NCBI GenBank assembly: GCA_015065505.1
Contig: SVQE01000005.1
Span: forward strand, 1 to 62,913
From: Oscillospiraceae bacterium
Lineage (GTDB): Bacteria > Bacillota > Clostridia > Oscillospirales > Acutalibacteraceae
DNA: 62,913 nucleotides
Reading direction: 5' to 3'
The translations under genes and the position numbers were made by a program. Below, in pieces: positions 40,135 to 62,913 of this stretch. Below the pieces are notes generated by a model. That model did not search any database and had not been told where the DNA came from. It saw only the letters and a list, made by a program, of their open reading frames with translations. Position 1 is the first letter of the stretch. The number at the start of each line of letters is the position of its first letter.

Positions 40135-43100
40135 TTATATGAACTTTGCTTCGCAGGCTGCCGCATATCTGAATACACCCTTTGCAAGGTTTTTAAGATT
40201 TTCATCAGCCGTGCTTTCGCTTCTTAAAACCGTGTACAGGTAAGCATATCCGTTATAGGTAATTTCGGTTGTTCCGATTGTCAGAGTAAAGATTTTTCCG
40301 AAATCATCTGCCTTGAGTCCCGTTACGCTTACGCAGTTACCGTTTTCGGTTTTAATCCACTTGGCTGTTAACGTCGGGTCGCTGATACTAAGCTCAGTAT
40401 AGTAGCACCACACTTCGTTAGTCTGCGATACATAGAATCTGAATTCGGGTTCAAGAAGTGCCAGGTATGTAACACCCGTTATATTAAGGTCTTTGCCCGA
40501 AGCATCTTTACCAACCGAACACGATGCTTTTGCCTTGCTTCTGAAACTTTCAGCGTCAACATCGGCTTTATAATCAAGCGAATGACTAATTGAATAATCA
40601 TTACCCGTTTCATTCTTTGAAAGAGCTGCATAGTCAAAATATTCATCTGCAAGAGCACCATAGTTGAGAAGTGACTGAACAAGTTCATGATAATCCGAAT
40701 ATGCCTCAGCTCCCAGAATAGCATTGCAGTAATCCTCGATTGAAGCAGTTATCGGTTCATAATTCATCTTCTCGCCTGCTGCGTTATAGATATAAATCGA
40801 ATACTCTTCTGCAAGCTGTGCAGGAGCCGCTTTCAATATGAGCTTTCTTGTTCCGTCGTCCTGAATATCAAGCGCTGAATCGTTTACTGAATATGTTTTT
40901 CTTGAAGCGTTCTTATCGTCGGTTGTTTCAAGATAAGTGTATTCAATGTGTCCGCCCTCGGCGTTATAGTACGGCATATCAATGAAGAAATTAACCTTAA
41001 TTCCGCTTTCAAGACTCAGATTGTATGCGTTTTCAGGCTCGCTGAACGGAAGCATAATGTACTTATATTCGCCCAGCGAGGTTGAGCCATTCCACTTAGT
41101 TGAATCAGCTTTGTTTCCTGTTGCACTTACCTTAACTCCGAGAGTCTTTGTTGCTGATGTGAGAATGAATTGAGAGTTAAACGCTGCATTTCCTGAAACA
41201 GCTTCAAGCATAGTTCCCTCTTCGGCAATGAGATTATCGTTATTCCTGTCGTTATAGAAGGAATAAGTGTTTTCATTGCTGCCTGTTACAGCCTTGAGAC
41301 TTGCGCCGTTTTCAAGGGTTAACTGATTTGAATACATCAGATAGTAACCATATGTCGGTGCTGTTCCTGGGATATTTATAGAAACCCCTGCACCGTCGAT
41401 ATTTGTATTCTGACGGCTCTGGATACCGTAATATGTATTCTCGTCATCGGCATTCATTTCAATTGACAAGCTGCCGTTCCCATTGACGGTGAAGCTCTGA
41501 GTGCTTGCAACAAAGATACCGTATTTTTCCGTTACTCCCTCTTCATCAGTTGAAGCATCAACAATTCTGTTTTCGCCGACAAGCTTAATTGTAAACGGTT
41601 CGTCCTGATTATAACGGATACCGAATGCCTGCGTGGGTGTACCGTTATCCGCTCTCTTGTCAACCTCAACGGTTGCGCCGTTAAGAGTGAGCTCATTTGT
41701 CTGAACATTGAAGCTTACTTTGCCGTCGCCGAGAACATCATTGCAGTTTGCGCTGTTAACATGAACGCCGCCAACATAGAGATTATAGTTTATCACATTG
41801 AAGGTTGCGCTGATAGTTACATCTGATGCAGGCATAGTAAACTTGCCGTCTGTTACGGTTATTTCGTTTTCGTCCGCATCTTTAACGGTAAGCGCGCTGA
41901 GACGATAACCTTCATCGGGAGTAACTGTTAACGTTACCTCGTCGTCTTTATAGGCTCCGCTGCTCTCGAAGCTGACAGTACCGTTTTCAGATTCGTTAAT
42001 TGTAATAGTGTGCCAGTTCGGGCTTACAGTTTCTGTATAAACCGCTGTATAGGTAACGTCTTCAGTTACAGCCGGAAGTTCATCCGCTGCATAGGTTGCA
42101 GTACCGTCATTCCAACCAAAGAAAGTATAATCATAATGTCCCTCGGAATAAGGTGCAGGCGTTTCGCCGTTGTATTCGGGGATTGACGTTATAATAACGT
42201 TTTCGTCCGTTTCTTCAAGCTCGCCGTTTACAATCCAGTCAACGGTGTGATAGGTTGCCTTGCGGAGAGTTTTATTTGCAATCGAAGAAATCTCGCTGTC
42301 CGAAAGCGCGCCGTCATAAAGCTTAGTTCCATCAGTCAGTATCTGACCGTCGGCAACTGCAACCACATTACCCGAATATGTGCAGACCTTAATCGTGCTG
42401 CTGTTATCAGCACAGCCAAGGATAAGATTACCTTGCGAAACATAAAGCGAAATTGCTTCAACGTTGCCGCCGTAAATGCCCATATTTCCGGCAACAACCG
42501 AACCAAGATTTATGTTGCCGCCGTAAATATCAGCATCCATAAGTGCGCTTGTATCGTTTAAATTTAGAGCTCCTGTTTTGGTGCTCTGTGCGTAAACGGA
42601 GAGAGTCCACGCAGTGTTAGCATCAGCATAGCCGAGCTTATTAGCGGTCATAGTCTTGCCGTCTGCAAGAATTATATTGGTATTTGCTGCAATCTTTAAC
42701 TCAGTGCTATAAGAAACGTCCTGATTTACAACGTACCATCCGCCGTTAAGAACGGTTTCCGCTCCCGTGAGAGGCGTAGCAGTAACGCTTTGCTCTTCTC
42801 CGTTTTCATCAAGATAATTAGTTTTTACTTTTCCGCTTGAAACATATGCTGCCGTATAGGTTGCATCATCTGTTACCGCAGTAATTTCAGGCGTCCATCC
42901 GGAGAATATGTATTCGTTTTCGCCGTCGAAATACGAGTCGGGTGTTTCGCCGTTGTATTCGGGAGTCGTGCCGTAAGGAACGCCCTCGTCCGTTTCAACG
43001 GCTTCGCCGTTTGCAATCCAGTTCACAGTGAAGGTAAGTATGCTGAACTCTGCATTAACGGTAACTTCGCTGTCAGGCATCATAAAGGTATTATTCTCGG

Positions 43101-46100
43101 TTAAAGTAACGGGATTACCCTCAGCATCCGTTACTGTAAGGCTGTCAAGCCGCCAGCCCGTATTAACGTTTACTTCAAGTTCAATATCGCTGCCTTCTCT
43201 TGCCGCATCAACACCGCTGACAGTTCCGCCTTCGGTGTTTACATAATTTATCGTGTAGCCCGTCTTTCTGTAACTAACGCTTACGGTAACTTCATCCTCG
43301 GGCATCACGAAGGAATTATTCGTAACGGTTATCTGATGGCTCTTGGAGTCTGTAACAGTTATTTTTTCAAATTCATAGCCCTTCGAAGCAGCAACCTCAA
43401 CGCTTACCGTGTCACCTGCCATTGCCTTTTCGGGAACGGTTACCGCACCCTGCGTGCCGTCATTATCGAGAGCAATCTGATAATACGGCGCAAATTCAGC
43501 CGTTACGGTTGCACCGCCATATGGCATAGAAATTCTGTTTTTAGAGTCAATATTCAGCGTATTTCCGTTAAGTGTAGCCGTTGCAGAAAGACTCTTTAAG
43601 CCGCAGCCTTCATCAGGGCTGGCTGTTAATGTAACGTAGGTGTTGGTCGGAACATTATAATGGTCTGCAGAAAGCGTTCCGCCCTCAGACTGAACAAGCG
43701 TTAAATCAAAATAATTACTGCTTGTAAAGGTTGCGTTGACAAGACTTCCGAACTTTGAATTGTAGGTATTGAGATATGCGCTTTTAACATAAATCTTTGC
43801 TTGCTTGACACCGTAAAAACCATATGTATTATCACCCCATGTCATATTATCGGGGTTTGCAGGGCAGTATACACTCGACAAGTAGTCGGCATTCTGAAAT
43901 ACGTAATCTCCCACATAATTTAGAGTTTCGGGAAGATATAGCGTTCTGAGATTTTCACAGCCTACAAATGCGCGGTCATAGATTGATTCAAGGTTTTGGG
44001 AAATATGTATATTCGTAAGGTCCTGGAAGTTACAAAATGCATATTCACCAATGGTTTTAACACTGTCAGCCATATAAACATCTATGTCGTCCCAGCATCT
44101 GAATTCGCTGAAAGCGTTTTCACCGATAGAAGTAATGCCGTCCTCTATTCTGATATGCTTGCAGTGAAGGTCGTCAAAGGTGTTTCTATGCCAAGGTGCA
44201 TACTTACCGTAAGCGGAGCCGGAACCGTAATTGAACATAGCTCCTTCGCCGTAGATAATAAGTGTCTCTGTATCCGCGTCAACCTTCCAATACGCCTTAG
44301 GTCCGCACTGATTCGGCGCAGCGTCTGCAAAGAGTCCTTTAACCGTTACATTTCTGCTCGGCATGGTAAAGGTGTCGTCGTCAAGCAGTGTTTCGCTGCC
44401 TGCAACAAGCGTTGCCTGATATAAGAATTTGCCTGTTTCGGGATATGAGAAAATTCTTATTGTCTCGCCCGGGAAAGCCGCAGTCGGCGTTGTGCTGATA
44501 GTACCGCCGCCGCTTGACTGAACGGAAACAGTGTAAATATCCGTACCGATATTAAGGGTTTTTGACACGGTGCGGCCGTTAATTGTTGCCTCTAAGAGAT
44601 AGCCGCCCTCCTGCTCTGTTACGGTAATAGGCGCTGAAATGCTGTGCTCTTCGTCATTATTACACTTAACGGACGCCGAGCCTGTAATAAAGCCGTCTGA
44701 CGTAGCAAGTTTCCACTCTACGTTGTCATAATCCCAGTTATGGCCGATGGCAGGTATTGAATTACCGTCCTGAATAATCTGTCCGCATGCAAGACATTTA
44801 ATAACGGTTTCGTGACCGTTCTCCGTACAGGTTGCAGCATACGAATCGTAGGTAACCACTTCTCTATGTCCTACGGGAACAATCTCGGTTTCTTCATAAC
44901 CGCAATCCTGACAGGTGTATATATTCTTGCCTTCTATGTCACACCGATAACCGACAACTATCGGGTCACCGAAACGGTGCTCCTTCTTTTCATAGGTAAG
45001 AGTTGCCGTTACGTTTGCTTTAATATTAGTAAGTTTCTTGTTTGAGGAAACAAACTCATAGTGTCCCTCTTCGCCGAAATCGTAGAAGGTTTCGGGAGTG
45101 ATAGAGCCGCCGTAAGGAACGTTGTTAACCTCATCCTCCATATTCATAGCGGCAGGATACTTAAAGGTTACCTTGTAGGTCTTTTCCGCCCACTGCGCAT
45201 AAAGAGTTACAACTTCACCTTCGCCCGAAGCAAGATTTCTTACCATTTGTTTGTTATTGTAGGAAGTGCCGCTTCCGTCCGCTTCGGTATTCCATCCAAC
45301 GAAATTATATCCCGTTCTGGTGAAGCCGTTTGTCGGGAGCTGATAATAACTTGCGTCATAGGTAAGTTGCTTTGACGTCATAGAGCCCTTTGTGGCACCG
45401 TTTCCGTCATACTCAACAGTATAGGTGTTTGCCGTGCAGTTCGCCTCGATAACGCCGTCACCGTCGCCGAAGGTATAAACCATTTTTTCTTTGCTGTTCT
45501 CGGTAATGGTTTCGAGAGTACCCTTTGCGGACTTTTCAAAGCCCGTAATCGTATAGCCCGTCGGGTTATCTATTTCGGGTAAGGTTACCTTTGTGCCGTC
45601 AATACCCGTTGCTGACCATACAGTTTCATCGCGAACAATCACATTAAGCGTGTTCAGGAATTTGAACGAAGCGCTGAAATTGGCTTCTACCTCGGGATAA
45701 ACGATGTTCTTCGTTTTATATACAGCCGTAAGGTTGCTCGTGTGGTCAACCTCTCCTTCACCCTCGCTGCACAGCGTTTTGGCTATGTAATAATATGTAT
45801 CGTCGTCTATATCTTTATAGCCGTATTCGTCGCTGCCGACTGTATGTTCTTTTATTTTGTTGTAATTATTTTCATTGATTGTAACGTCGGGGTTTTTCCA
45901 GTAAACGTTATACTGGTCGGAGGCGTATGCATACACCTTGCCCTTGCTCGACTTTTCTTTTTTATCAATCGCAGCATCCGTGCAAATGATATCGTCTGAG
46001 TCCTCGCCCTTGAAGAAAATCTTTTTCGGGTATGGCTTCTTATCCTCGGGAACAGCAATTTCCCACGTTTTATCCGAACTGTCCCAGGGAGATGAGGAGG

Positions 46101-47787
46101 TACTGTAACGGCTGCCGTGAACATTTACGCCGTTAATATACAGTTTAAGTTCGCCTTCCCAGTCGTGCCAGGTAAAACCGCCGCCAAAGTCGATATAGAG
46201 TTCGAGCTTGTCAAGGAAATGATCACTCGTGAAGGTCAGCGTTGCCTGGTCACCCTCATCGTCAATTTCGCCCTCAAAGAAAACTGTTTTTGCGTGCTCG
46301 CTTGCACCAAAACCGTTATAGCCGTCGGTTGTAAAGAACCTCAGCTTAGCGTGGTTCCAACCGTCGGCGTCGTCGATGGTTTTTACGGTTACGCGATAGG
46401 TATATTCCTCTGTCGGCGGATAATCCGTAAAGCCCGTAATATCGTATCTTATTTCACCGTTAAGGAGAGTGAGGCAGTCGCTCTTTCTCTTTTTGTCCAC
46501 GTCTGCAAAGAAGTAGAGCAGCGGGTCGCTTCCTTCGGTGTAGTTCATATTATTTGAATAATTTGCAGAAATTGTGCCGGTGTCGTCTCCGTAGGTGACA
46601 CCGATATTAGTATTGCCGCTTAAATGATAACCCGCAAAGCTCAGTTTGAGACCTTTTTTCAAATAAAGGTTATTCGTGGTGCTGTTAACGTCGTTCCCCG
46701 TAACAACTAAGCCGTCGTATATCGTTATTGTATCGTTGCCGACATAAATACCGCCACCGTTTTTGCCTGCGATATTGCCTGTTATTTCAGTTGATTTGAA
46801 TTCTGTATCATGAAGTGACTGAACGCCGCCGCCGTTTTCAGAGGCAACGTTGTTTTTGATTGTCGAACCTTCAATAAGGTTAGCTTCTACGCTTGAATTA
46901 ATGCATATAGCACCACCGTTTTTCGCTTTATTTTCTTCAAGCGTTGAGTACTGAACCGTCAGGTGGCGTACAGCAGCATCATAATAAATTGCGCCGCCGT
47001 CGCTGCCTGCGCTGTTATCTGTGAACGTACATCCGATTGCTACGGCTTCCCAATGGCTGCATATAGCGCCGCCGTTATTGGTCGCGTTGTTGCCCAGCAT
47101 CTGTACGTTTTCAAGGTAACAGTATTTTAAATTTTCATTGGTTGAATTGATACCCGAATGAAGGGCGCCGCCGTAAGACGCTTTGTTATTCGAGATAACG
47201 CCGTCGTACATATTAAGAACATTATTGTTTTTGATTGCGCCGCCGTCCCAGGTCGCGGTATTGCCTGTGAAAATACCGCCGTAAGTGGTCATTTTGCCGT
47301 CGTTAAAAACAGCACCGCCGTTCTGTGCGGTATTCGCAGCAAAGGTACCTCCCCTGATTTCAAGCGTACCGTGGTTTTCAATAGCACCGCCGTTACCCGT
47401 TGTCCAGCCGCCATAAACACGTCCGGTAATACCTGCGCTATCGCGTACTGTAAGTTTTGCGCCGGAGGCAACGTAGAATATATTACCGTTTGCCGTTGCC
47501 TTTTCAAGGGTACGATACAGACGATGACCGTCAAGGTCAACGTCTGCCGTGTTTCCGTTTTCTATCTGAATTCTGTCTTGCAGATTGATATGCTGCGTCA
47601 GTTTGACCTTTACGTCGCTGCCGCTTGCAAGGGCAGTTCTGAGCTGAGCCTCGGTGCTTACCGATACGGCATCGTCAGCAAATACTACCGACGGAGCAAG
47701 CGATGAAAGCACCATTAAAAGCGCAAGAAAAACGCTCAGAATACGCCTTGGCATTTTTTCTGTTTTAATAAAATTATTCTGATTCAT
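40135..47787 (-). CDS. Giant secreted beta-helix/InlB-repeat/LRR protein (2550 aa)
   Basis: Signal peptide (about 1-38), then a right-handed beta-helix with GGAI/GGAV(F/I) turns (about 40-365). A PLAT-like beta-sandwich region follows (about 464-562; VTVKTIDDADGWNHAKLRFF), then a Listeria-Bacteroides (Flg_new) repeat (about 785-867) and two CxxCG zinc-ribbon-like repeats with VGH/IGH ends (about 934-1019). After these come BspA-like LRR_5 repeats (about 1204-1342), several divergent InlB B-repeats (GWRLDSLTVTDAEGN, FTMPASDVTIS) and a C-terminal module with LLNYGALADEYF and RYAAACEAKF. No TM anchor. The module recurs in the protein at 59.9-62.9 kb. Start ATG overlaps the previous stop (TAATG). 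Probably an extracellular adhesin or matrix protein. Confidence 0.87.
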   Translation of the reverse strand: MNQNNFIKTEKMPRRILSVFLALLMVLSSLAPSVVFADDAVSVSTEAQLRTALASGSDVKVKLTQHINLQDRIQIENGNTADVDLDGHRLYRTLEKATANGNIFYVASGAKLTVRDSAGITGRVYGGWTTGNGGAIENHGTLEIRGGTFAANTAQNGGAVFNDGKMTTYGGIFTGNTATWDGGAIKNNNVLNMYDGVISNNKASYGGALHSGINSTNENLKYCYLENVQMLGNNATNNGGAICSHWEAVAIGCTFTDNSAGSDGGAIYYDAAVRHLTVQYSTLEENKAKNGGAICINSSVEANLIEGSTIKNNVASENGGGVQSLHDTEFKSTEITGNIAGKNGGGIYVGNDTITIYDGLVVTGNDVNSTTNNLYLKKGLKLSFAGYHLSGNTNIGVTYGDDTGTISANYSNNMNYTEGSDPLLYFFADVDKKRKSDCLTLLNGEIRYDITGFTDYPPTEEYTYRVTVKTIDDADGWNHAKLRFFTTDGYNGFGASEHAKTVFFEGEIDDEGDQATLTFTSDHFLDKLELYIDFGGGFTWHDWEGELKLYINGVNVHGSRYSTSSSPWDSSDKTWEIAVPEDKKPYPKKIFFKGEDSDDIICTDAAIDKKEKSSKGKVYAYASDQYNVYWKNPDVTINENNYNKIKEHTVGSDEYGYKDIDDDTYYYIAKTLCSEGEGEVDHTSNLTAVYKTKNIVYPEVEANFSASFKFLNTLNVIVRDETVWSATGIDGTKVTLPEIDNPTGYTITGFEKSAKGTLETITENSKEKMVYTFGDGDGVIEANCTANTYTVEYDGNGATKGSMTSKQLTYDASYYQLPTNGFTRTGYNFVGWNTEADGSGTSYNNKQMVRNLASGEGEVVTLYAQWAEKTYKVTFKYPAAMNMEDEVNNVPYGGSITPETFYDFGEEGHYEFVSSNKKLTNIKANVTATLTYEKKEHRFGDPIVVGYRCDIEGKNIYTCQDCGYEETEIVPVGHREVVTYDSYAATCTENGHETVIKCLACGQIIQDGNSIPAIGHNWDYDNVEWKLATSDGFITGSASVKCNNDEEHSISAPITVTEQEGGYLLEATINGRTVSKTLNIGTDIYTVSVQSSGGGTISTTPTAAFPGETIRIFSYPETGKFLYQATLVAGSETLLDDDTFTMPSRNVTVKGLFADAAPNQCGPKAYWKVDADTETLIIYGEGAMFNYGSGSAYGKYAPWHRNTFDDLHCKHIRIEDGITSIGENAFSEFRCWDDIDVYMADSVKTIGEYAFCNFQDLTNIHISQNLESIYDRAFVGCENLRTLYLPETLNYVGDYVFQNADYLSSVYCPANPDNMTWGDNTYGFYGVKQAKIYVKSAYLNTYNSKFGSLVNATFTSSNYFDLTLVQSEGGTLSADHYNVPTNTYVTLTASPDEGCGLKSLSATATLNGNTLNIDSKNRISMPYGGATVTAEFAPYYQIALDNDGTQGAVTVPEKAMAGDTVSVEVAASKGYEFEKITVTDSKSHQITVTNNSFVMPEDEVTVSVSYRKTGYTINYVNTEGGTVSGVDAAREGSDIELEVNVNTGWRLDSLTVTDAEGNPVTLTENNTFMMPDSEVTVNAEFSILTFTVNWIANGEAVETDEGVPYGTTPEYNGETPDSYFDGENEYIFSGWTPEITAVTDDATYTAAYVSSGKVKTNYLDENGEEQSVTATPLTGAETVLNGGWYVVNQDVSYSTELKIAANTNIILADGKTMTANKLGYADANTAWTLSVYAQSTKTGALNLNDTSALMDADIYGGNINLGSVVAGNMGIYGGNVEAISLYVSQGNLILGCADNSSTIKVCTYSGNVVAVADGQILTDGTKLYDGALSDSEISSIANKTLRKATYHTVDWIVNGELEETDENVIITSIPEYNGETPAPYSEGHYDYTFFGWNDGTATYAADELPAVTEDVTYTAVYTETVSPNWHTITINESENGTVSFESSGAYKDDEVTLTVTPDEGYRLSALTVKDADENEITVTDGKFTMPASDVTISATFNVINYNLYVGGVHVNSANCNDVLGDGKVSFNVQTNELTLNGATVEVDKRADNGTPTQAFGIRYNQDEPFTIKLVGENRIVDASTDEEGVTEKYGIFVASTQSFTVNGNGSLSIEMNADDENTYYGIQSRQNTNIDGAGVSINIPGTAPTYGYYLMYSNQLTLENGASLKAVTGSNENTYSFYNDRNNDNLIAEEGTMLEAVSGNAAFNSQFILTSATKTLGVKVSATGNKADSTKWNGSTSLGEYKYIMLPFSEPENAYNLSLESGIKVNFFIDMPYYNAEGGHIEYTYLETTDDKNASRKTYSVNDSALDIQDDGTRKLILKAAPAQLAEEYSIYIYNAAGEKMNYEPITASIEDYCNAILGAEAYSDYHELVQSLLNYGALADEYFDYAALSKNETGNDYSISHSLDYKADVDAESFRSKAKASCSVGKDASGKDLNITGVTYLALLEPEFRFYVSQTNEVWCYYTELSISDPTLTAKWIKTENGNCVSVTGLKADDFGKIFTLTIGTTEITYNGYAYLYTVLRSESTADENLKNLAKGVFRYAAACEAKFI

Positions 47788-57937: not shown

Positions 57938-58369
57938 CTATTCATTTCTCAAGGATTTATCAACAAAAGCTTCCGTCATATTTGCCCAGTAATAATTGGA
58001 CATATACTCGCCTCTGTACGAGTTAACCGCATGCACATCACCCTGCAGCAGTCGGTACAAATCGCAGTCAATCAAAGCTGGATTTATACGCAATTCACCC
58101 GAATTCATTTCAAAAATCTCGCCTATACCGTTTTCCGTAAGCGTTGTTTTAAGACTGTGAACGATTACGTTAAAGCTTTTCTGCATTTTGCGGTCATATA
58201 ACTCATCCTCATATAACGCTGCAAAGGCAACGGCTCGCTTTACGCCCGCTCCCTGTTTATCAATAAGAAAAGCGAGCAATTCCTCGACGGTATGTTCCGA
58301 TTTGAAAAAACAATAAAGTAAAATAGCAAAGGGCGCGGAGTAATCCCTGCCTTTTGATATCCTTCTATC
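57938..58369 (-). pseudogene. C-terminal fragment of a BTAD/SARP-type response regulator
   Basis: The frame is open from 58369 (just after a stop at 58370-58372) with no usable start. It reads FFKSEHTVEELLAFLIDKQGA..., then SFNVIVHSLKTTLTENGIGEI and LLQGDVHAVNSYRGEYMSNY, which match the winged-helix and bacterial transcriptional activator domains of gut-Clostridial response regulators. The N-terminal receiver domain is missing. It lies upstream of the operon B TetR gene and is probably a decayed remnant. Confidence 0.7.
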
Positions 58370-59901: not shown

Positions 59902-62900
59902 TTAGTCAAAATATGTGTTTGCGGCTGCACCGTAAAGATACATTGCCTTTGCAAGCGTTACAAGCTTTGCGTCGTTGCTATTCAGCATCATCTTAATGAT
60001 AGCATTCGCTGTCATAACAATATCGCCATCTGACGTGTTTACCGTAATGGTGTTGTCCATATTTGCCGGCTCAATGCCCGCAATGTGTACAACATAGTAA
60101 TCGCCGCTCTGATAGCTTGTTGCTGCAAATCTGTCTTTGCCCTTTGTTGAATCCATGCTTGCGCCTGTTACTTCAATAGGTGTAAGCGAGAAAAGATTGA
60201 TTTCAAGGTCTGACTTAACTACAACAGATGCTTTTGTAATGCAGCTCGGTGCTGCGCTTACGCCTGCAACAGTTGAAAGGTCTGCCCCTGCAACATTATT
60301 GTAGAAGCCGCCTGTTGCATCTTTGGTTGCCATATTCTCGGTATTGTAACCGAAGTAATCCTGAGCAGATGCTGCGTAGTCAAGAGTTGCTTTTGCAAGG
60401 TCTTTGAGATTTTCAGCATAATCGCCTGTGATAATCTGACGGCAGTAGTTATATACGCTGTAATCAATAGTATCAATTGCGTTTTCGCCTGCCTGTGCGT
60501 CTTCAGCATTTGCGTAAACATTAATTGTGATAGGCTCTGTTGCCTGTGCGGGAGCCTGAACTACCGAAAACTTTCTTGCGCCGTTATATTCGCTTGTGCT
60601 GTCATCAAGCTCGGGAAGTGAATTCATTGCAACAACATCAGTACGGAAATCATCTGTCTCGCTCACATTACTGTTGTGGTTGTAGTTTACGGTTATAAAT
60701 GAATCCTCACCGTAGAACTCATCATCAAGATAGAAATTCTCGCTGATGGTGTCCGCAACGGTGATGTTTGTTCCGTTGTTGGCAACGACAACAAGATGGA
60801 GTGTGCTTTCCTTCTGGATACTGTAATCAGCAAGCGTTCCGCTGTCATCAAGCAGCTTGCCTGCAAAAATCAGCTTCTGATTTGCAACAGGGATTCCGTC
60901 AAACTGAGCAATCTTTTCTTTCACATAGCCGATAGTAGCCGTCGGCTCGAAGCGATAGGTGAGCGTTTCACCTGTCAGCTTCTTGAAAAACAGCAGCATA
61001 CCTTTTGAAACCTCTTCAAAGGTTGCGGTATACTCTGCATCCTCAGTTGCTGCGGCGAGCTCGGGTGACCATCCGTTAAAGGAATATGTATACTGACGGT
61101 CCTCAGCTTTGGTCGGTTCTTCACCTGTGAAGGTAGGAACAGTGCCTTCTTCAACCTCGGCGGTGTCGAGAATAGTGTCGCCGTTTTTCCAAGTGATGGT
61201 GTATTTGTTGGGTTCAAGAATTTCAAACGCTTGCTCTGTTGTACCCGTGTAGTTGCCCTTGTAATTGATAATCTGGGTATAGGTTCCGATTTCTGTCGGT
61301 GATGCGTTTGTCTGCGCATACTCCGTGTCGCCTGTGCCGACATATTCCAAATCGTAATCTTTACCTTCTACAAGTGTGTAAGCACCATCGGTTATATTCA
61401 AAGCCGGAGCTTTGGCGGTCGTGTCATACACCAAGCCGGATGCATCAATCTGCTCATCAATTTCACTCTTGTTTTTCGGTTCAATCGTTACCGTAGCGTG
61501 GTCGGTCAGCGTTACCCATGTGCCGACATCATCACTCGGAGCGGATACCTGATAATATATATCATAAATGCCTGCGTCCGTGTATTCAGGTGCTTCTGTT
61601 AATGTGTAGGCATTGTTGGCATCTCTATATTTAATGGTTGTGCCTGCAATCGGTGCAATCACGTTCACGCTGCCGATGGTATGGGCATTTTGGTCATAAA
61701 CGCCACTGTAGCTTGTTGCCGTATCAGCCGTGCACTCACGCTCTATCTTGGCTTGAATAGAAACATTACCGCCGTTAACGGCAGATGTATGTGCGTTATT
61801 AGTATAAGCCTGTGTGATGTTCGCAGAACCGGTGCCAAGGCCGTTTAAATTGACTTTTAAGTTATTGCGATTGCTCCAACTGGTAATATTATTACCGGAT
61901 ATGGACATAATGCCCGTATTGCTGCCTCTGTTTTGATAAATCCACCAATTTCCGGAGGTATGCCCGATTGCATACATAAAGTCGCCGCCGCCAATGGAAA
62001 AAGACGTGGTGGTCTGGTGCGATCTATAAACCCTCCAACTCTTATCGCTCTTATAGATAGATACCTGGTACGTACAATTTACTATGATAAGCCCATCAAT
62101 GGCGGAATAAATGTCTGCCGCCGCATTGTCAAGTTCAGCATTGGTCGCCTCATTATTAGTAAGAAGTGCATTTGCTGCACTAACAGAATCTGTGATCGCA
62201 TCACGGGTAACCTTTTCATAGGTTTGCCTATAATTGCTTTCCGCTTCTTTAGCGCTTGCGGCTGCAATCGCTGCTTCAAGCGCGATGAGATGCACATTTT
62301 TGTAAGCTGCAATGAAGGTTATATCACCGCTTACGTTCGGCAGAGCGCTTGCGGCATAAGTGGTTGTGCCGTCCGACCAACCTACAAAGGCATATTCCGT
62401 TTCGCCGTCAAAATAATTTGCCGGTGTTTCGCCATTATAAACAGGCATTGTACCATAAGCTATGTTTTCATCGGTTTCAAGCACGGTATCGCCGTTTTTC
62501 CAAATTACGGTGTAAGTATTCACCGTATTGCTGTAAGTGGCAGTGTAGGTTACATCGCCGGTAACTGCCGCAACTTCGGGGGACCAGCCTGCAAAGGTGT
62601 AAGTATACTGTGCGTCTGCCAACTGTACCGGAGGTTCGCTATCATAAGTAGGGACCGTTCCGTAAGGCACATTTTCATCGGTTTCAAGCACGGTATCGCC
62701 GTTTTTCCAAATCACAGTGTATGTTTTCACGGTGGCGCTGTAGGCTGCCGTGTAGGTCACATCGCCGGTCACAGCGGGAATCTCGTTTGAGGCATAGGTG
62801 TTTGTGCCGTCACTCCAGCCTACGAAGGTGTAGGTGTACTGTGCGTCTGCCAACTGTACCGGAGGTTCGCTATCATAAGTAGGGACCGTTCCGTAAGGCA

Positions 62901-62913
62901 CATTTTCATCGGT
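59902..62913 (-). CDS. Giant secreted protein with ubiquitin-like domain (5' end outside window)
   Basis: At least 1003 residues; the frame is open to the right edge and no start is visible. Order from the N-terminal side: three InlB B/Flg_new-type repeats ([18 protein letters not shown]...), a FIVAR-like helical segment ([20 protein letters not shown]), a beta-rich region, Ig-like MBG-type units ([30 protein letters not shown]), another Flg_new repeat and a ubiquitin-like domain (60784-60999). A C-terminal module follows, with [16 protein letters not shown] and [16 protein letters not shown], shared in pattern with the 2550-aa protein. No C-terminal anchor. Likely extracellular; host-facing role is inferred. 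Confidence 0.87.
60784..60999 (-). other. Ubiquitin-like domain within the giant secreted protein
   Basis: 72 residues beginning [14 protein letters not shown] and ending [12 protein letters not shown]. By eye, about 42 of 72 positions equal those of eukaryotic ubiquitin without gaps, including QKLIFAGK and [10 protein letters not shown]. The hydrophobic patch residues L8, I44, H68 and V70 and lysines 6, 27, 29, 48 and 63 are kept; K11 and K33 are not. The C-terminal RLRGG tail is replaced by VVANNGTN, so the domain cannot be conjugated. Confidence 0.92.
62611..62913. repeat. 231-bp near-identical direct repeats
   Basis: The segment starting TGCGTCTGCCAACTGTACCG at 62611 recurs at 62842, 231 bp (77 codons) later, almost base for base, and continues past the window edge. 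It encodes consecutive InlB B-type repeats, so recent in-frame amplification is likely. Confidence 0.85.

Follow-up and report, generated by a model that had tools for sequence, protein, structure and literature searches.

As a rule, ubiquitin is regarded as a protein of eukaryotes, and the locus considered here raises the question of why a ubiquitin should lie inside a large repeat protein of a bacterium, and what it might do there. The whole stretch of DNA analysed, 62,913 nucleotides from an Oscillospiraceae bacterium, is called the window below. The reading that we favour, with a probability of about 0.5, is that a captured ubiquitin has been reused as an extracellular recognition module with a putative binding role. 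The features on which the argument turns are the following.

59902 to 62913, minus strand: host open reading frame (ORF), 1003 aa, with its 5' end open at the contig end and its stop codon at 59902-59904
62515 to 62727, minus strand: a copy of the YTITWKNGD...YTATF repeat, found by sequence comparison
62299 to 62520, minus strand: another copy of this repeat, aligned with an insert of 8 residues
61006 to 61203, minus strand: beta-rich repeat (YTITWKNGD...YTATF) immediately N-terminal of the ubiquitin domain, four strands modelled with confidence
60784 to 60999, minus strand: ubiquitin domain, ubiquitin residues 1-72 in register and ungapped, protein residues 639-710
59905 to 60777, minus strand: C-terminal module, 291 aa, directly after the ubiquitin domain
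40558 to 41031, minus strand: distant partial copy of the C-terminal module (25% identity, query residues 1-173 of 291), in a 2550-aa ORF at 40135-47787

By sequence and structure model, the window domain is a true ubiquitin in family and in predicted fold. The 72 ubiquitin-like residues are read only on the minus strand, the plus-strand reading of 60784-60999 being an unrelated frame; the sequence-only reading had named no strand. They share 42 of 72 positions (58%) with ubiquitin in an ungapped alignment, exactly the approximate count that an earlier, sequence-only reading had made, and 43 of 76 in a local alignment; the BLOSUM62 score of the domain with short flanks was 203, against a maximum of 44 among 2000 shuffles. 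The Pfam ubiquitin model PF00240 scored the domain at 79.7 bits (E 1.3e-22; curated cut-off 25.4 bits), which places it in the family, and matched the whole ORF at E 1.1e-20. The sequence-only reading had proposed a profile search and a structure prediction as checks. In the former, the other ubiquitin-like Pfam models scored far below PF00240 and no non-ubiquitin family outscored it; NCBIfam rad23 gave E 3.6e-12, far under the cut-off of that model. The latter gave a model with the ubiquitin beta-grasp fold (pLDDT 92.9), fitting 1UBQ at 1.0 Å over 76 residues; the VIA-align rows of the structure comparison were mostly residues 68-145. A phmmer search of the PDB with the domain matched 380 sequences, and the best 60 of these were ubiquitin or polyubiquitin, one viral ubiquitin and engineered ubiquitin-based binders.

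The domain retains L8, I44, H68 and V70 as well as K48 and K63, and it differs from ubiquitin in, among others, K11 (to E), K33 (to F) and R72 (to V). At positions 71-76 it reads VVANNG in place of LRLRGG, and 289 more residues follow position 76. Of the features of a modifier, K48, K63 and the I44 face are present; the C-terminal di-glycine and a free or processing-released form are not. Because the GG tail is lost, the domain is not a conjugated tag; together with its internal position, this indicates that it is a fixed part of a larger protein and not a modifier. The earlier claims of a kept recognition patch, kept lysines, an absent tail and a fixed domain thus agree with the alignment. 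The same points set it apart from eukaryotic ubiquitin (1UBQ): the window domain is bacterial, lacks the GG tail, is not processed free and is probably extracellular. A fixed, unconjugated ubiquitin fold within a larger protein is also found in Rad23 and parkin; however, the ubiquitin-like domains of these proteins act in the cytosol or nucleus, and the window domain is called by Pfam as ubiquitin itself, far above the other ubiquitin-like models.

The contig end at 62913 truncates the host ORF on its 5' side, and 638 open-frame residues precede the domain and 293 follow its residue 72. The protein consists of repeat copies, a stretch without any Pfam model over cut-off, the repeat at 61006-61203, ubiquitin and the 291-residue C-terminal module. 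It had been proposed that ubiquitin lies between InlB-type repeats and a C-terminal module. The domain does directly precede such a module; on the other side stands a single repeat copy, and its InlB type finds no support in Pfam, as the host-ORF repeats gave no match to Flg_new (PF09479) or Flg_new_2 (PF18998) at E<=1. PF18998, an InlB-type repeat, does match a related protein (L020), at residues 523-590 and outside its YTITWKNGD-type repeats. Counting the window gene, the C-terminal module is encoded 13 times in the genome, hence at 12 further places, some at 25-31% identity. Its structure model, built from two sequences, is poor (pLDDT 58.5), and a fold search of the PDB was uninformative, the 50 matches listed having query TM-scores of at most 0.23 and being largely antibodies and receptors. 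In the neighbouring repeat-rich 2550-aa protein, which carries the partial module copy, Pfam finds no ubiquitin domain.

A second ubiquitin domain is encoded in the same genome, on contig C12, in a 1237-aa ORF (L011, 5036-8749) with the same C-terminal module and a start that is, by eye, signal-peptide-like. Secretion of the window protein is not visible in the window because the contig end removes the 5' end of the ORF; we infer it from this start of the paralogue, and the earlier description of the protein as secreted is therefore putative. "Giant" was generous, the complete paralogue having 1237 residues. A gene at the end of another contig, C37, also has a signal-peptide-like start, and over its final 89 bases it matches bases 77-165 of the window ORF at 98% identity; judged by this overlap, it may be the missing front of the window gene. 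Both break inside repeats. A protein of like architecture is present in G030, a genome of the same genus, and was also recovered as L020 from the uncultured Clostridiales bacterium RUG177 (RUG presumably standing for rumen). The copy of G956 was recovered again as L021, from a record of a Clostridia bacterium of sheep duodenum. In the C12, G030 and G956 proteins a repeat follows the ubiquitin domain.

Other parts of the surroundings may be mentioned here. Seven large minus-strand ORFs lie near the gene at 25413-57076 (1824, 1317, 578, 2550, 789, 1643 and 496 aa). A domain scan that covered the ORFs of 1824, 1317, 578, 2550, 789 and 496 aa found a ricin-type lectin domain in the 1317-aa ORF, and five InlB-type repeats with BspA-type leucine-rich repeats in the 2550-aa ORF. 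To judge by eye, a 113-aa ORF at 57938-58279 is almost the same as the C-terminal part of a C37 ORF that resembles a response regulator (L012, 1624-2427); it may be a shortened duplicate close to the ubiquitin gene.

The wider collection comprises 34 bacterial domains at 31 loci, obtained with a local profile at 20 bits or more. It excludes L049-L051, L076 and L077, which are over the Pfam cut-off but weak (L077 with an internal stop), and L026, L031, L032, L052 and L078, which are under it; L075 (G1322), a clear signal peptide-ubiquitin protein, was found later. Some loci are duplicates of one another, among them L017 and L020, L033 and L057, and L040 and L021. Two architectures can be distinguished. 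Internal domains number six (the window, C12, G030, G956, G862 and G1078). In 21 of the 28 non-internal ones, Met1 of ubiquitin directly follows an AxA-type, signal-peptidase-like site behind a hydrophobic stretch; the other seven are three domains of G880 and those of L019, G871, G872 and Pseudoalteromonas, and in the last three the match starts within the domain. At least 60 of 72 residues are shared with ubiquitin by 11 of the 34 domains, the best being 67/72 (G371), and many of the non-internal domains are nearer to ubiquitin than is the window copy. Apart from G880, the non-internal domains are followed by C-terminal extensions of about 50 to about 1600 residues. Some of the proteins bear signals for the cell surface or wall: SLH domains were found in two (L055, L058) of the six non-internal proteins run in full through Pfam, and LPxTG-like tails in five of 34 rows by regular expression, one of them a loose match. 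The domain at L058 3329-5383 (G584) is the sole one of the 34 with a full LRLRGG, and more than 500 residues, including SLH domains, come after it.

One member of the N-terminal class belongs to a cultured organism. RUMAL_RS21475 of Ruminococcus albus 7 (L073, NC_014824.1 387760-388500) encodes a ubiquitin domain behind a signal-peptide-like start and is carried by pRUMAL01, the record of which is a complete mobilizable plasmid. Its neighbours comprise small hypothetical genes as well as one gene with a phospholipase C domain and one for a dockerin. Like the window protein, it combines a ubiquitin domain (here 65/72 identical to ubiquitin) with a host among Clostridia; it differs in the N-terminal position of the domain, a short C-terminal part, a length of 246 aa and its plasmid location. 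It could serve as a tractable model for signal peptide-ubiquitin proteins. Since it is annotated as "ubiquitin family protein", databases already carry a label for domains of this kind; among the matches listed from open-licence full texts, no published account of the class or the architecture was found.

The internal domains appear to be exchangeable. The C12 gene and that of G862 (L068, genus g440), compared in 54-base windows over bases 1900-2817 of the C12 ORF, are 94-100% identical in DNA over 1900-2331, 52-65% over the repeat-ubiquitin-repeat segment (2332-2763) and 81% thereafter; as a single BLAST match they show 88.7% over 2203 columns. The reverse pattern is seen with G956, which also belongs to g440, a genus other than that of C12: DNA of the ubiquitin domain is 94-100% identical (dS 0.029), whereas dS is 0.87 in the 70 codons before the domain and 0.38 in the 60 after it. 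Within this domain dN (0.046) exceeds dS, on few sites. Gene backbone and ubiquitin cassette of L011 (C12), L068 (G862) and L021 (G956) thus differ in their closest relatives. The simplest reading of these alignments would be a transfer of the ubiquitin domain, as a cassette, from one repeat protein to another, also across genera; draft assemblies stand behind the mosaic, and a chimaera is a possible alternative. For the ubiquitin domain of the window copy no donor was found.

Occurrence of the domain is sparse. Within the genus it was present in two of 37 genomes, and 23 other genomes in the same search had none. With all architectures counted, the draws gave, over the Pfam cut-off, 19 of 398 genomes for the family (20 with any match), 5 of 394 for the order, 5 of 391 for the class (7 with any match) and 4 of 348 for the phylum (5 with any match), counts that are not additive because the draws overlap and each includes the genome of the window; the 14 control genomes had none in each draw. 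Since 19 of 398 family genomes carry it, and copies reach 67/72 identity, ubiquitin exported by bacteria is more than an isolated curiosity; by these sequence searches the domain recurs as a module across Clostridia, beyond what one window shows. Among 50,697 phage records there was no ubiquitin-domain match, and 45 pattern matches in viral contigs included no relative; two plasmid records had matches, one of them weak. No OTU deubiquitinase was found in the genome of the window, which is uninformative because the control genomes also gave none. Records of three further phyla also hold such domains: behind a signal-peptide-like start in L018 (Lentisphaerae, RUG673), in an ORF with an LPxTG-like tail in L019 (an actinobacterium), and close to the beginning of a giant Ig-like protein in L074 (a Pseudoalteromonas plasmid; 37% to the window copy).

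As to origin, the ubiquitin appears to have been captured from eukaryotes by gut-type bacteria. Capture had already been suggested by the sequence-only reading, and the relatives at 67/72 and the patchy occurrence support it as an inference. Built on 74 columns, a tree of 34 bacterial and 8 eukaryotic domains (42 in all) has good support on eight of 39 inner branches and places neither donor nor direction; the joins of the window copy with RAD23A (83/45) and of the C12 type with parkin (89/44) were set aside as weak long-branch joins. The first half of the C12-type domain (..VTGxTTxAQxK..; L011, L020, L021, L068, L072) appears to resemble FUBI/FAU, and the second half ubiquitin, so that a FUBI or chimaeric origin is conceivable for it. 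The poor resolution of the tree, together with a 58% identity that gives no direction, could be taken to favour an old bacterial beta-grasp lineage, but relatives so close to ubiquitin, a best profile that is ubiquitin itself and the absence from all 14 control genomes make this extremely improbable. Almost as improbable is an artefact of assembly or binning, that is, eukaryotic contamination or a chimaeric contig. The source genome is indeed a 95-contig draft in which the window gene and C37 both break in repeats, and the cassette mosaic is based on draft, apparently metagenome-assembled genomes; but an uninterrupted ORF joins the domain to a module recurrent in the genome, the contamination figure is 0.15%, like architecture is shown by a second gene and by another species of the genus, and a signal peptide-ubiquitin gene lies on the complete plasmid of the cultured R. 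albus 7.

According to the mechanism that we propose, a captured eukaryotic ubiquitin would have become a fixed but exchangeable part of extracellular proteins that are Sec-secreted and built from repeats. In the window gene it would be held between a beta-rich repeat and the common C-terminal module, and the exposed domain would probably bind a partner through the retained face L8/I44/H68/V70. The partner may be a ubiquitin-binding protein that protists or an animal host release, or else a target on the surface of other bacteria. Like its secretion, the surface exposure and the binding role of the window copy are putative. Conservation of the face was assessed with assumed classes of face, exposed and buried positions. 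Across the six internal domains, 23 of 24 core-face residues are kept (all four in five domains, three in the sixth), as are 47 of 60 positions of the wider face, compared with 79 of 210 elsewhere on the exposed surface and 98 of 162 in the buried class, pooled counts that are not independent because the sequences are related; a misplacement of residues 71-72 in the G862 pairwise alignment affects the wider-face count and not the core. In the 28 non-internal domains the corresponding counts are 71/109 (core face), 190/275 (wider face), 653/967 (other exposed) and 616/742 (buried). Here the face is not favoured, since the core is kept at 71/109 against 653/967 for other exposed positions, and it must be dispensable in some relatives, because core residues have been lost in G875 (0/4), G871 (0/3) and G872 (0/3), among several. 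Taken singly, C12, G956 and G030 keep the face better than all other positions (P 0.0007 to 0.014), and three of the six internal domains, including the window copy (P 0.33), show no significant difference. Outside the face, all six are more conserved in residues 41-72 than in 1-40, and within 41-72 the face is favoured only in G956 (P 0.029, uncorrected, one of six; window P 0.80). Among bacterial copies the face is no more invariant than other positions (P 0.06 to 0.76), whether the assumed lists or the list in PMC10892293 were used. By alignment, face retention in the internal domains is thus inseparable from a general conservation of the C-terminal half, and the mimicry of ubiquitin toward released or extracellular proteins that bind it, as the sequence-only reading had suggested, is conjectural.

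A rival reading is structural: a very stable small fold would have been taken as one further spacer among beta-rich repeats, its surface having no ligand. The domain is aligned in a row with the repeats and abuts one of them directly, the constraint on the face is not detectably above that on the rest of the domain, and distant N-terminal relatives retain the fold positions and not the face; moreover, InlB B-repeats are themselves beta-grasp folds. Nevertheless, the near-complete core face of the internal domains, set against 79/210 at other exposed positions, and the 21 of 28 non-internal relatives that have the domain at the mature N-terminus, which is no place for a spacer, lead us to consider it less likely than a binding role. 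Another possibility is suggested by BfUbb of Bacteroides fragilis, a precedent for ubiquitin acting extracellularly, with a signal peptide-Met1 junction: according to PMC5705921, the mature 76-aa protein inhibits sensitive B. fragilis strains, and the window domain could likewise inhibit related bacteria. A second argument for competition comes from G880, a 1.1-Mb genome of the same family. At L080 5497-7003 (G880:C22), it has four small tandem ORFs, in each of which a double-glycine-type leader with LSEEELELVIGG at its end precedes a ubiquitin-like domain. The Pfam ubiquitin cut-off is exceeded by three of these domains (the fourth has E 0.047), three ORFs end in a single glycine, the leaders match the bacteriocin model NF038167 weakly and below cut-off (E 0.0013 to 0.017), and a single C39 peptidase is encoded on a different contig of the genome. 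From their sequences, these proteins look as if they were exported in the manner of bacteriocins. Yet the window domain is internal in a protein of at least 1000 residues, not a small free protein, and a general scan of nine neighbouring ORFs named no immunity or dedicated transport gene, so that an antibacterial role by analogy with BfUbb seems less likely still for it.

Reuse as an extracellular recognition module, the reading that we prefer, invites a fuller comparison with BfUbb. As described in PMC3352274 and PMC5705921, BfUbb is likewise a ubiquitin homologue of a gut bacterium without a GG tail; it is exported, as the window protein probably is, and its signal peptide-Met1 junction is common to the 21 non-internal relatives. 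However, BfUbb is a free 76-residue protein, and a signal peptide directly before Met1 of such a small protein is not what the window domain has, which is internal in a large repeat protein from a different phylum; the non-internal relatives, too, differ from BfUbb in carrying C-terminal parts, some long and some with SLH or LPxTG-like ends. As far as the searches show, an internal ubiquitin in a repeat protein, present in several genera and with apparent cassette exchange, is new relative to BfUbb within the literature searched.

It is nearly as likely as not, and we put it forward tentatively, that gut-type Clostridia have repeatedly made eukaryotic ubiquitin into an extracellular interaction module, by display at the N-terminus of mature exported and surface proteins, by cassette swaps between repeat proteins of different genera and, in one lineage, by multiplication behind bacteriocin-type leaders. 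If this is true, bacteria that live with protists or animal hosts would use extracellular ubiquitin as a general tool, with BfUbb as only one case. The role that ubiquitin plays in the gut outside cells, toward protist or host proteins or toward rival bacteria, is in any case opened to testing.
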